From positions 1 through 44,371 of the forward strand of contig CAJXCR010000006.1 in NCBI GenBank assembly GCA_913051825.1: DNA of 44,371 bases, in the 5' to 3' direction. The notes under the pieces were generated by a model, which was given only the letters and a program-made list of their open reading frames with translations, did not search any database and was not told the DNA's origin. Position numbers and translations under genes: made by a program. This document shows, piece by piece, positions 7,952-29,841 of this stretch (positions are counted from its first letter, which is position 1; the number at the start of each line of letters is the position of its first letter). The DNA is from an uncultured Halieaceae bacterium (lineage in GTDB: Bacteria; Pseudomonadota; Gammaproteobacteria; Pseudomonadales; Halieaceae).

Positions 7952-8099
7952 CTAAGGGTCCACCATTTTCATTAGGCAGCCAGAAGAGACTTTTAGCCGA
8001 ATAGTGGCGATTGCGGGACTCCAATACTTTTTTGATGGCATTTAGGGTCTTTTAGTTTATTTCTTTTAATTTTACAACCATTATACTTCTCTCACTAAT

Positions 8100-11278: not shown

Positions 11279-13501
11279 TTACAGATCAAAACGATCCAGC
11301 ATCATTACTTTATCCCATGCTAAGACAAAGTCTTTAGCAAGTTTTTCTTTGCCATCGCTTGACGCGTAAACCTCTGCAATTGCGCGCAACTCGGAGTTAG
11401 AACCGAAGATAAGATCCACGGGAGTAGCTGTCCATTTTAGAGCATTAGTTTTTCGATCTCTTCCTTCATATATCCCGCTATGCTCTTCTGATTTCGTCCA
11501 CTGTACTGACATATCCAAAAGATTAGTGAAGAAGTCATTATCTAATGATCCAGGAGTTTCGGTAAATACACCATGCTTGCTTCCATTAGTATTGGCATCG
11601 AGAACACGCAGTCCTCCAATTAGTGCTGTCATCTCGGGTATTGAGAGGTTTAACAAATCAGCTTTTTCCACCAGCATATCAGCTGGTGATCCATAACTTT
11701 CGCGGCTGTAATAATTACGAAAGGCGTCTGCTGTCGGCTCGAGCACTGCGAATGATTCTATATCTGTCATGGCTTGCAATGCATCTGTTCTTCCAGGTGT
11801 AAAAGGGACTGAAAGTGCAATGCCTGCATTACTTGCTGCTTTTTCAATAGCAGCGGCGCCACCTAAAATTATCGTGTCCGCGAGTGATATTTTTTTGTCA
11901 CCGTACAGAGATTCATTAAAATCGGAATTTATACCTTTTAATATTTTTATTACTCTTGCCAATTCCTCTGGATCATTAACTTGCCAATTAATTTGAGGTT
12001 CGAGTTGGATACGAGCTCCATTTGCTCCGCCCCGCATGTCGGAATCTCGAAAGGTTGAGGCCGATGCCCAAGCGGTCTTTACAAGCTCTGAGATAGTTAG
12101 TTCTGATTCTAGAATCTGTTTCTTTAATTTTTGAGAGTCACGAGCACTTATTAAGCGGTGATCGACACTTGGAATAGGATCTTGCCAGATAAATTCCTCT
12201 GCGGGTATCTCATCGCCTATATAACGGCTGGATGGTCCAAGATCACGATGTGTAAGTTTGAACCAAGCCTTGGCAAAGGCGAGATCAAATTCTTTAGGAT
12301 TTTCTAAAAAGTGAGATGAGATTTCTCTAAACCCGGGGTCTTTTCTGAGCGCAATATCTGTCGTAAACATAATTGGTGCGTGTCTAAGGCTAGGATCATG
12401 TGCATCTGGTACTAAGGCTGAGGCGGATTCATCCGTTGGAATCCACTGTGTTGCGCCCGCGGGACTCTTCGTTTGCTTCCAGTCAAATCGAAAAAGGTTT
12501 TCTAGATAGAGTATTGACCATTTTGTTGGCGTAGAGGTCCAAGCGCCCTCTAAACCACTCGTCATCGTATCAGCGCCTTTGCCCGTACCACACTTATTTT
12601 TCCACCCCAATCCTTGTTCTTCGATACTTGCTCCTGCGGGTTCTGCGCCTACGCAGCTACCTGAGTGTGCTCCATGTGCTTTTCCTAATGTATGTCCTCC
12701 CGCAACTAAAGCTACGATCTCTTCATCATTCATTGCCATTCTTCCGAAAGATTCACGCATATGTTCGGCTGCAGCAAGCGGATCATTATTTCCCATTGGT
12801 CCTTGCGGATTAACATAGATCAAGCCCATTTGTACGGCACCCATCGGCTTTATTAATTTCCCATTTTTGTCATATCTTTTATCGCTGGCGAGCATTTCAG
12901 TTTCTGGTCCCCAGTAGACGAGATCTGCCTCCCATTCATCGGCACGTCCACCTGAAAAACCTAAAGTTTCGAAACCCATAGATTCTAGTGCGACATTTCC
13001 CACTAAAACCATCAAGTCGGCCCAAGATAAACTTCTGCCATATTTTTGTTTTACTGGCCAAAGTAAGCGGCGTGCTTTATCGAGATTAGCGTTATCCGGC
13101 CAGCTATTGAGAGGTTCGAATCGATGTTGACCGCCATCGGCTCCACCCCGTCCATCATGAATTCTATAAGTTCCCGCAGTGTGCCAGGCTAACCTGATCA
13201 TTAGACCACCATAATGTCCCCAATCCGCCGGCCACCAATCTTGAGACTGCGTCAAGGTATCCTCGATATCACTTTTTAGCGACTGCAGGTCGATGCTTTC
13301 AAAAGCTGTTGCATAGTCAAAATTGTCCCCATAAGGGTTAGATCTTGGGTCTTGAGATCTCAGCGGCTCAAGATTCAATCTTTCTGGCCACCAAAATTGA
13401 GTTGATTTAGCCATACCATCTGCCGCTAAGGAGTTATTAGTGACTGCTATCGAAGTGGCGATAGTAATGCCGATTAAAGCGTATAAAGATTTTGAAAGCA
13501 T
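11279..13501 (-). CDS. katG: Catalase-peroxidase KatG, exported form
   Basis: KatG is a bifunctional haem enzyme removing H2O2. In the 740-residue protein the distal site is Arg103, Trp106 and His107 (IRLAWHTAG), the proximal ligand is His270 ([10 protein letters not shown]), and the Met-Tyr-Trp cross-link partners are Trp106, Tyr229 (GLIYVNP) and Met255. Both halves of the duplicated peroxidase fold are present. The first ~27 residues ([14 protein letters not shown] core, SLAADG end) look like a signal peptide, so this is a periplasmic version rather than the common cytoplasmic one. GAGGAG lies before the ATG. It is divergent from oxyR, which fits control by OxyR. Confidence 0.97.
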
Positions 13502-13632
13502 TGCGGACTCCTCGTCTATTAATTTTTTTGGTTTATATGCTCGTAAACAGTTTAAATTCCCTTTAGATAAAAATTTAATTGATTAGAAATATCAATCCAA
13601 TCGGTTCAAAATTCGTGCTGTCATTTCTTAAT

Positions 13633-27727: not shown

Positions 27728-28186
27728 CTATACTGAGATATTTGATAGATTAAAGGGTGCATCAGCGGGTAGTTTGGCACTGTCACCCCAAAGTGCGCGG
27801 TCTGCAAGCGCGCTATCGAAATACTCGATAAGTCGTATAAGTTTTCCATCATGGAAGGTAAGTATATGCACGTAAACTTGATCGTAACGAGCTCCGCTTG
27901 AAGCTAATCCATGATTTTGTGCCATGGCAACGACAGTTTGCTCATCGTCTGCAATAATTTTGTAGTCTTTACAGAAAGTAATTTCTTCTTGATTTACGCA
28001 AGAAAATACCAGTGGCAGAATTTCAGTCATAAACTTAGTTTTGCCTCGGTAGTGACCGGATAAAACGCCATCACTAATAGGAATGATAAGTTCTAGGTTT
28101 GGATCTAATATATCGGCTAATGCATCTGAATTAGCCGAAGCAATACTACGATAAAATTTATCAACAGTTTCACGATTAGTATTCAT
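27728..28186 (-). CDS. SnoaL-like (NTF2 fold) protein
   Basis: The 152-residue protein has the NTF2-like pattern: RETVDKFYRSIASANSDALADIL, LSGHYRGKTKF, then YVHILTFHDGKLIRLIEYFD, as in SnoaL-like polyketide cyclases and ketosteroid isomerase relatives. The family includes enzymes and simple ligand-binding proteins, so no reaction is assigned. AAGGAAG is placed about six bases before ATG. No signal peptide is seen. It is divergent from the Fur box region and the MFS gene. Confidence 0.8.
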   Translation of the reverse strand: MNTNRETVDKFYRSIASANSDALADILDPNLELIIPISDGVLSGHYRGKTKFMTEILPLVFSCVNQEEITFCKDYKIIADDEQTVVAMAQNHGLASSGARYDQVYVHILTFHDGKLIRLIEYFDSALADRALWGDSAKLPADAPFNLSNISV

Positions 28187-28304
28187 CCAAATTCTTCCTT
28201 TAGTTACTTAAAAGCGCGGTTCAATAAGTATTCTATTGAGCTTGACAGTTTATCTTATATTACGCTCTCTAAGCACTTTCTTGGCTTTAAATCGCCTTAA
28301 AAAC

Positions 28305-28323
28305 GAGAATGATTATCATTTAC
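28305..28323. promoter_or_regulatory. Fur box
   Basis: GAGAATGATTATCATTTAC matches the 19-bp Fur consensus at 15 positions, with the central AATGATTATCATT nearly palindromic. It overlaps a possible -35 (TTTACA, 28319-28324), with GATGAT 17 bases on as a weak -10, so iron-bound Fur would block this promoter. It may act on a downstream RNA, on the MFS gene at 28678, or on the minus-strand SnoaL-like gene. TTGACA at 28242-28247 has no -10 at proper spacing. Confidence 0.7.
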
Positions 28324-28353
28324 AATTCAAAATTTGTATGAGATGATGTTTTT

Positions 28354-28558
28354 GTTGCTGAGGTCGGCGCCCAATTTTTGAGGTTCCTCAGGTTCTCCTC
28401 TTTGGGCGTCGACCGACTTACCTTCCGCCAAACATATAATTAGATGCTAGAAAAAATTTAATTAGGAGCATTAATTCAAATTTTTTCCCCCTTTGTCAGC
28501 TTTCTTTGGCGTATCTATTACCTTTGCATATGGTAATGGAGCTACCCGGCTTTTTTTT
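28354..28558 (+). ncRNA. Candidate Fur-regulated small RNA or structured leader
   Basis: The 491-base gap 28187-28677 has no long reading frame. 28362-28374 pairs with 28402-28414 over 13 bp (one G-T pair), with a 27-base apical part that can form an inner TGAG/CTCA hairpin. Further on ATTACC (28517-28522) pairs with GGTAAT (28532-28537), and a T8 tract at 28551-28558 could end transcription. The 5' end is set from the putative promoter at the Fur box. A 12-codon frame (MMFLLLRSAPNF, 28343-28381) ends inside the stem-loop, so a leader with attenuation for the MFS gene is an alternative. Confidence 0.4.
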
Positions 28559-28677
28559 CAGTGCTGGTCAGTTAAGTTAGTCCAATAAAACAATTTAGGA
28601 TTTCAGTCGATTGCCTCGATATATTTTAATAAAATAATTGTTAAGCAAACTTGTTAGTAAAATAACCATGGTAATAA

Positions 28678-29841
28678 ATGGCCCAAATAAATAAAGACAG
28701 ATTATTTTTTGCCAGTTGCACTTCTCTACTACTGACCGCCATGACATTCGCTGTCAGAGCAAGGTTGGAGACCGTGTTTGGTCCAGATGGTCTTGGCCTG
28801 ACCCTAGAAGAGATTGGTTATGCATTTATGCCCGCATTCTGGGGTTTTACTATTGCCATGATTCTCGGCGGACCTCTTGTTGATACCCTTGGAATGAAAA
28901 AAGGGATGTGGCTAGCATTCTTCTTTCATACTCTAGGCATACTAACGACCTTATTGGCTTTCGATCTTGAGTCGCTATTTATCGCGACACTTTTAATGGG
29001 CCTAGGCAATGGGATGGTTGAAGCCGTCTGCAATCCGCTGGTCGCAAGTATGTATCCTGATCAAAAAACAAAGATGCTAAATCGCTTTCATCTTTGGTGG
29101 CCGGCGGGAATAGTCGTTGGATCCATTGCTGGGTATATCGCAATGGATCTCATGACCATGTCATGGCATTACATGGTAGCAACCTTATTTATTCCTCTTA
29201 CTATTTATGGCTACACATTATTAGGACAGGCATTTCCGGTCACTGAGCGAGTGGAAATGGGTATAAGTAGTTCTGACGCTTTTAGGAGTTTGTTTAGGCC
29301 GCTATATGTCTTTATTGCTTTCTGCATGTTGCTTTCGGCAGCAACAGAGCTGGGAACGACACAGAGAATAGAATCGTTACTCAAAGAAACAGGTGTTAAC
29401 GCGCTATTGGTGTTGGCATTTATTAATGGAGTTATGATGCTTGGTAGATACTACGCAGGTCCGGTTTCAAAAAAACTCACTGTGGTAGGGATGTTATTGT
29501 TCTCCGCCTTATTCTCATTCATAGGTCTTCAGTTATTAGCAATTTCTTCTGGAAAGTATGTTTTTATCTCGGCCGCCGTATTTGCAATAGGCATCACTTT
29601 TTTTTGGCCAACCACCTTGGCCTTTATTTCCGAGAACATACCAGAGAGTGGCGCATTTGGATTGTCGCTTATGGGTGGTTTGGGAAATTTATCTGTGGCA
29701 ATAGTGCTGCCACTAATGGGTCGATATATGGATAACTCAGTCGGTGTAGAAGTGATACAGCGTATGAGTATTCTTCCCGCAGTGTTGTTTCTCTGCTATC
29801 TAATTTTGCAGTTCTATCAAAAAAATAAAGCAGCTTTATAA
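28678..29841 (+). CDS. MFS transporter, FucP-like
   Basis: The 387-residue protein has about 12 hydrophobic helices. Loop 2-3 shows GGPLVDTLGMKKGM, the usual MFS motif A position, and helix 4-5 shows LMGLGNGMVEAVCNPLVASMYPD, typical of sugar-type FucP/GlcP relatives. TAA lies in frame directly before ATG 28678, fixing the start, though no ribosome binding site is evident. The convergent oxidoreductase and isomerase operon, one base beyond its stop, suggests uptake of a sugar or cyclitol, but the Fur box upstream would also allow a metal-linked role. Confidence 0.85.
   Translation: MAQINKDRLFFASCTSLLLTAMTFAVRARLETVFGPDGLGLTLEEIGYAFMPAFWGFTIAMILGGPLVDTLGMKKGMWLAFFFHTLGILTTLLAFDLESLFIATLLMGLGNGMVEAVCNPLVASMYPDQKTKMLNRFHLWWPAGIVVGSIAGYIAMDLMTMSWHYMVATLFIPLTIYGYTLLGQAFPVTERVEMGISSSDAFRSLFRPLYVFIAFCMLLSAATELGTTQRIESLLKETGVNALLVLAFINGVMMLGRYYAGPVSKKLTVVGMLLFSALFSFIGLQLLAISSGKYVFISAAVFAIGITFFWPTTLAFISENIPESGAFGLSLMGGLGNLSVAIVLPLMGRYMDNSVGVEVIQRMSILPAVLFLCYLILQFYQKNKAAL

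Follow-up and report, generated by a model that had tools for sequence, protein, structure and literature searches.

A candidate Fur-repressed small RNA and a sister RNA with predicted katG and sdhC sites in a genus of uncultured Halieaceae

An intergenic region of an uncultured Halieaceae bacterium likely holds a Fur-repressed small RNA gene at positions 28305-28420, the transcript of which would pair through its loop with the 5′ regions of mRNAs. Within it, the segment 28354-28420 on the plus strand (predicted small RNA, RNA1) represents, with a high degree of probability, a free-standing RNA under Fur control. The window, by which we mean the whole analyzed stretch of 44,371 nucleotides, is contig 6 of the assembly of this genome (G000; 2.3 Mb, 160 contigs), and the genomes G001 and G002, about 70% and 60% complete, represent two further species of the same genus. 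In the mechanism proposed here, Fur-Fe(II) would cover the -35 element TTTACA, which overlaps the Fur box, as long as iron is sufficient, and once iron is short, a short RNA would be transcribed from about 28354. This RNA would be made up of an invariant 5′ end plus a single long hairpin presenting a 27-base pyrimidine-rich loop that resembles an anti-Shine-Dalgarno sequence. By analogy with a second locus located outside of the window (RNA2), the loop would pair with 5′ regions of mRNAs whose products use iron or can otherwise be dispensed with, and the pairing would block translation or expose the mRNA to decay. Taken as a pair, RNA1 and RNA2 probably save iron under scarcity, like RyhB and PrrF do. 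Halieaceae are marine bacteria of habitats in which iron is often scarce.

In regard to the Fur box, a first-pass annotation made from the letters of the window had reported a 15/19 match, and the match was confirmed at 28305-28323 (not assigned to a strand), where GAGAATGATTATCATTTAC agrees with the pattern GATAATGATAATCATTATC at 15 of 19 positions on the plus strand and even at 16 of 19 on the minus strand. The pattern scan of the 44 kb returned it as the best Fur box and as the sole site with at least 15/19. By chance, 0.55 Fur-like sites per window are expected at a threshold of at least 15, and 0.05 at a threshold of at least 16 (first-order Markov control). Throughout one genome, 20 sites with no more than three mismatches were found vs. 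12 for the reversed control pattern, a number that exceeds chance only modestly. We take the weight of the Fur-box evidence to rest on its conservation; the palindromic core AATGATTATCATT is the same in all three species and at RNA2. The -35 element that had been suspected under the Fur match is best read as TTTACA (28319-28324). It opens a predicted sigma-70 promoter (28319-28347, plus strand), in which a 17-base spacer with TGA at its end (extended -10) leads to the predicted -10 element GATGAT at 28342-28347. The promoter was recognized by pattern search and by its conserved spacing, as TTTACA-N14-TGn followed by a weak -10 is common to all five promoters compared (three of RNA1 and two of RNA2, one per species). 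With this -35 element overlapping the Fur box, RNA1 would start about 7 bases 3′ of the -10, near 28354, which is exactly where conservation goes up. At both loci, we infer transcription as well as Fur binding. What marks the locus as a candidate non-coding gene is the Fur box over the predicted -35, the lack of a conserved frame, and a layout shared by these promoters. A short frame across the RNA1 hairpin (LLRSAPNF in G000) was considered and dismissed: a one-base deletion breaks it in G001, and it is without ATG in G002.

The long stem reported earlier is real. Its arms at 28362-28374 and 28402-28414 (plus strand; fold and alignment) form 13 pairs including one G.U, and it is the sole plus-strand stem in the window with at least 13 pairs and at least 8 G-C pairs. 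Its 5′ side carries the invariant GTTGCTGAGG. The enclosed loop of 27 bases (28375-28401, plus strand) has the conserved pyrimidine-rich core GAGGTTnnTCAGGTTnTCCTC, which ends in the CUCC/CCUCC stretch behind its anti-Shine-Dalgarno likeness; an optional GAGG/CCTC pairing could form inside of it. We propose this loop as the antisense part of the molecule. The first-pass annotation had continued the RNA through a second hairpin (28517-28537) to a run of eight T (28551-28558). Both elements exist, and the folding energy of 28333-28560 (z = -2.6) indicates a stable region, in line with a longer sRNA reaching from 28333 or 28354 to 28558. However, the two elements do not stand as a terminator: they lie 13 bases apart, the terminator scan made no call, and in G001 and G002 neither of them is conserved. 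The implied 3′ end at 28558 found no support, and we regard the longer RNA as unlikely. For the shorter RNA1, the terminator scan found no canonical terminator directly 3′ of the conserved stem, and its putative 3′ end at 28420 is drawn from conservation.

A DNA search recovered the block of Fur box, promoter and hairpin from each of the three species, while the 95 other genomes from the family and order gave no match. Identity to G000 amounts to 89% (G001) and 95% (G002) in the Fur box, 79% and 52% in the 29 bases between the box and RNA1, 97% and 85% in RNA1 itself, and 48% and 43% in the 42 bases directly 3′ of it. While conservation of the stem in relatives was thereby borne out, the compensatory changes that would accompany it were seen only in part. 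One T-A pair is replaced by C-G in G002, but one pair is broken in G001, and the signal, derived from three sequences with a single compensatory pair, was equalled by 165 of 500 shuffles, so the covariation evidence for the stem appears only mild. The G.U pair is conserved in all three species, and an RNA of the opposite strand would have an A.C mismatch in its place. A covariance model search found no credible copy of RNA1 in other genera of the family; its weak family-wide matches (E 0.007-0.09, eight genomes) were discarded, as none has a Fur box of at least 15.

The genes around RNA1 bear on two other explanations. As claimed before, the gap between the starts of the divergent SnoaL-like gene (27728-28186, minus strand) and the MFS transporter gene (28678-29841, plus strand), i.e. 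from 28186 to 28678, measures 491 bases and holds no long frame. The MFS gene lies 3′ of RNA1 in G000 and G002 (87% identical). In G001, where no MFS match was found in the assembly of about 70% completeness, a same-strand gene for a PPOX-type flavoprotein takes its place, about 119 bases 3′ of the hairpin. The segment 28305-28420 could, as the first-pass annotation had offered for an alternative, be a Fur-controlled 5′ UTR with an attenuating hairpin that acts in cis on the downstream MFS gene. Such a leader would accord with the presence of a same-strand gene 3′ of RNA1 in every species and with the absence of a strong terminator between the hairpin and that gene in the terminator scan. Nevertheless, the downstream gene differs across species, identity collapses past the hairpin, the gene facing the sister RNA2 in G002 is convergent, and Rfam gave no riboswitch or leader family match. 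These points weaken the leader explanation, which we hold to be improbable. A free-standing Fur-repressed sRNA is favoured, because the block is conserved in all three species whatever gene comes next, while beyond the hairpin the sequence diverges.

Alternatively, the Fur box could serve the divergent SnoaL-like gene, with the hairpin as a bystander. The box adjoins this gene in all three species, and the upstream region on its side is 82% identical between G000 and G001. On the other hand, the same side is only 42% identical in G002 although box and hairpin are conserved there, no Fur box of at least 15 was seen upstream of about 25 SnoaL homologues (43-52% identical) from another Halieaceae genus, and RNA2 presents the same box and hairpin beside other genes. 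This explanation is consequently very unlikely.

RNA2 was located through a Fur-box pattern search of the three genomes. Its locus, Fur box and promoter included, occupies G000:C25:15788-15899 (L071:1501-1612), with RNA2 itself at G000:C25:15836-15899, and its counterpart in the sister species is found at L070:1406-1519 (G002:C6). The Fur box is identical to that of RNA1 and the promoter spacing is the same, followed by GGCTGGTGCCC, the loop, and GGGCACCAGCC. The loop is equal in G000 and G002 except at its edges, and the stem shows a change from U-A to U.G in G002. The gene 3′ of RNA2 encodes a sodium/solute symporter in G000, where it has the orientation of RNA2, and a methyltransferase in G002, where it is convergent. 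Neither RNA2 nor sdhC was found in G001, an absence that is uninformative in an assembly of about 70% completeness. Strong stems behind Fur-like sites were scanned over about 2.3 Mb of the genus (sites of at least 15/19, stem of at least 9 pairs with at least 6 G-C within 150 bases), and only the RNA1 and RNA2 loci emerged; the RNA1 copy of G001 falls below the threshold because of its broken pair. Covariance models of the two RNAs cross-match at E = 0.006-0.035, which is suggestive, while plain alignment is not (SW p = 0.48 in G000 and 0.05 in G002), so that sequence homology between them would be weak. Weak RNA2 matches in G010 and G153 were rejected, since the sequence preceding them lacks the Fur box and promoter layout.

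Based on its complementarity, RNA2 is very probably an iron-sparing sRNA of the RyhB/PrrF kind, because its loop is complementary to the katG ribosome-binding site (13 nt) and to the sdhC leader (11 nt, in two species); action on these two predicted targets is likely. The katG gene, encoding the heme enzyme catalase/peroxidase HPI (TIGR00198, 1083.7 bits, over the cut-off), lies in the window at 11279-13501 on the minus strand. Its Shine-Dalgarno sequence and start codon are covered by AGGAGTCCGCAAT (13500-13512, minus strand), a perfect 13-nt complement of the RNA2 loop. In an unbiased scan of the G000 gene starts against this loop, katG with its 13 nt ranked first, and the RNA2-katG duplex (-35.4 kcal/mol) was the first of 936 in the same genome. 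The site was seen in G000 only, as the G002 contig begins inside katG.

The sdhC leaders of G000 and G002 share GAGTCCGCAAT, a perfect 11-nt complement to the RNA2 loop, about 83 bases upstream of the ATG. Sdh_cyt was the first target family examined for RNA2; when 28 sdhC leaders from other Halieaceae were compared with the loop, their longest complements spanned 5-8 nt. Within 1.07 Mb of G000, the 11-nt motif has three occurrences, in RNA2, katG and sdhC. In both the G000 and the G002 leader the complement lies in the loop of a small hairpin, CTAGAG-TCCGCAATAAAAT-CTCTAG (L093, G000:C43, minus strand; L094, G002:C21, plus strand), with a TATACT box just before it. It seems that the sdhC mRNA begins with this hairpin, and a kissing contact with RNA2 is possible.

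Dinucleotide shuffles of the RNA2 loop gave P = 0.0024 for a katG match of at least 11 nt, P = 0.0016 for an sdhC match of at least 11 nt, and P = 0.087 for a match of at least 13 nt to any gene. The 13-nt katG match by itself is accordingly modest evidence, but the coincidence of two iron enzymes, both matched at functional positions, goes beyond that. An energy scan permitting G.U pairs also placed katG first, yet shuffled loops reach its value, and the real loop was not separated from the shuffles. Dimer folding of the whole RNA2 with katG gained 17.7 kcal/mol, while with sdhC there was no gain; a contact with sdhC would hence need both hairpins opened or a kissing interaction, a type of contact which the program omits.

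Two other genes are weaker candidate targets of RNA2, to judge from their matches. A bulged match to the loop, GGAGTCCCGCAAT, lies in the window at 8010-8022 (minus strand), some 70 bases 5′ of the gene for a molybdopterin Fe4S4 oxidoreductase, and is retained in G002 (L239:5438-5450) though the surrounding sequence has drifted. The second is a gene for a membrane protein with a Urate_ox_N domain, where GGAGTTCGCAATG extends across the Shine-Dalgarno sequence and start codon in both G002 (L186:2737-2747, minus strand) and G000 (L142:75-86, plus strand). It comes near the RNA2 target motif, with one C to T change that is G.U-compatible.

By analogy with RNA2, RNA1 may reasonably be expected to pair in antisense with iron-related mRNAs, although with less assurance than its Fur-controlled transcription. 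No convincing target was found among 939 gene starts of G000, a scan that took in about half of the genome, and 1038 of G002, with 269 orthologous pairs. The longest matches, which in G000 precede a DUF1214 gene (11 nt) and further genes (11 and 10 nt) and in G002 a Rieske-type-oxygenase-like gene (12 nt), were rejected as being of chance length or unshared between the species. Also rejected was AAAAAAAACCTGATTAACCTC, a match to the RNA1 loop conserved in G000 and G001, which lies antisense within an acyl-CoA dehydrogenase gene (G000). A large conserved loop for which no mRNA partner was found could instead point to RNA1 binding a protein, e.g. as a sponge of the CsrA/RsmA type, with no antisense pairing involved. 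GGA motifs are the kind bound by CsrA/RsmA. In the loop, however, such motifs would fall on the minus strand, while the promoter and the conserved G.U pair indicate the plus strand, and RNA2, which is of the same design, matches mRNAs of iron enzymes. We consider protein binding without pairing quite unlikely, and antisense action through the loop is what we infer for RNA1.

In comparison with known systems, the RyhB/PrrF-type architecture suggested by the first-pass annotation stood in part. A Fur-controlled sRNA of that kind is supported by the block in three species, the katG and sdhC matches of RNA2, and the unique stems, whereas the architecture as drawn and membership in an Rfam family are not. 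No Rfam family matched the window at gathering, RyhB included, which was also without a match at E <= 5 in 28280-28680, and the only related match, PrrF (RF00444; 18.4 bits vs. a gathering value of 90), lies over the Fur box region (28292-28354) and excludes the hairpin. PrrF1 and PrrF2 of Pseudomonas form a pair of iron-repressed sRNAs that act on iron-containing proteins, and each is preceded by a Fur box (PMC4211561, PMC7377471). RNA1 and RNA2 resemble them as two predicted sRNAs each placed behind a Fur box, but the P. aeruginosa copies are tandem and 95% identical (PMC4211561), while the two RNAs of the present genus come from separate loci and present different loops. With RyhB of enterobacteria they share a promoter with a Fur box, a predicted sdh target (here via RNA2) and the iron-sparing logic; they differ in that RNA1 is one long hairpin with a large loop, without a clear 3′ terminator U-tract and without an Rfam match.

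BrrF of Burkholderia cenocepacia is a RyhB analogue whose predicted and iron-dependent targets include sdhC and katB, a katG homologue (PMC7377471). It is, like the RNAs described here, unrelated in sequence to RyhB, and its sdhC and katG-type targets correspond to those predicted for RNA2. Whereas RNA1 and RNA2 have their own Fur boxes, BrrF does not; its gene sits downstream of hemP (PMC7377471). As BrrF shows, members of the iron-sparing sRNA class can do without a stem-loop terminator (PMC7377471). NrrF of Neisseria, which according to a title cited in PMC4211561 acts on sdhA/sdhC, and HrrF of Haemophilus are likewise Fur-regulated sRNAs, but are unrelated to RNA1 and RNA2 in sequence as far as Rfam shows (no matches). 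The literature searched held no report of a Fur-controlled sRNA in Halieaceae.

By this functional analogy, RNA1 and RNA2 may be filed as new members, unrelated in sequence, of the RyhB/PrrF/BrrF class, adding another case in which iron sparing by sRNAs has reappeared in RNAs of unrelated sequence. More tentatively, and with less than even confidence, they could constitute a lineage-specific new family of two Fur-controlled hairpin sRNAs with one promoter design and different loops, between which the iron-sparing regulon is split: RNA2 would cover the katG start and meet sdhC loop to loop at a 5′-terminal mRNA hairpin, and RNA1 would have a different set of targets. The pair is compact and testable, with a single hairpin, an exposed loop and named sites in katG and sdhC. 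For uncultured genomes it also offers a recipe, in which a stem that comes after a Fur box with TTTACA-N14-TG designates a candidate sRNA.

Two further Fur-like boxes of G000 were observed in the course of the analysis, both with 16/19 matches. One (L068:1501-1519; G000:C1:4900-4918) lies between two convergent genes, without a stem nearby. The other (L074:1501-1519; G000:C28:5765-5783) is flanked by the gene for a TonB-dependent receptor and a divergent gene for a small protein, and, as an expected regulon site by its position, indicates a presumably ordinary Fur system in G000.
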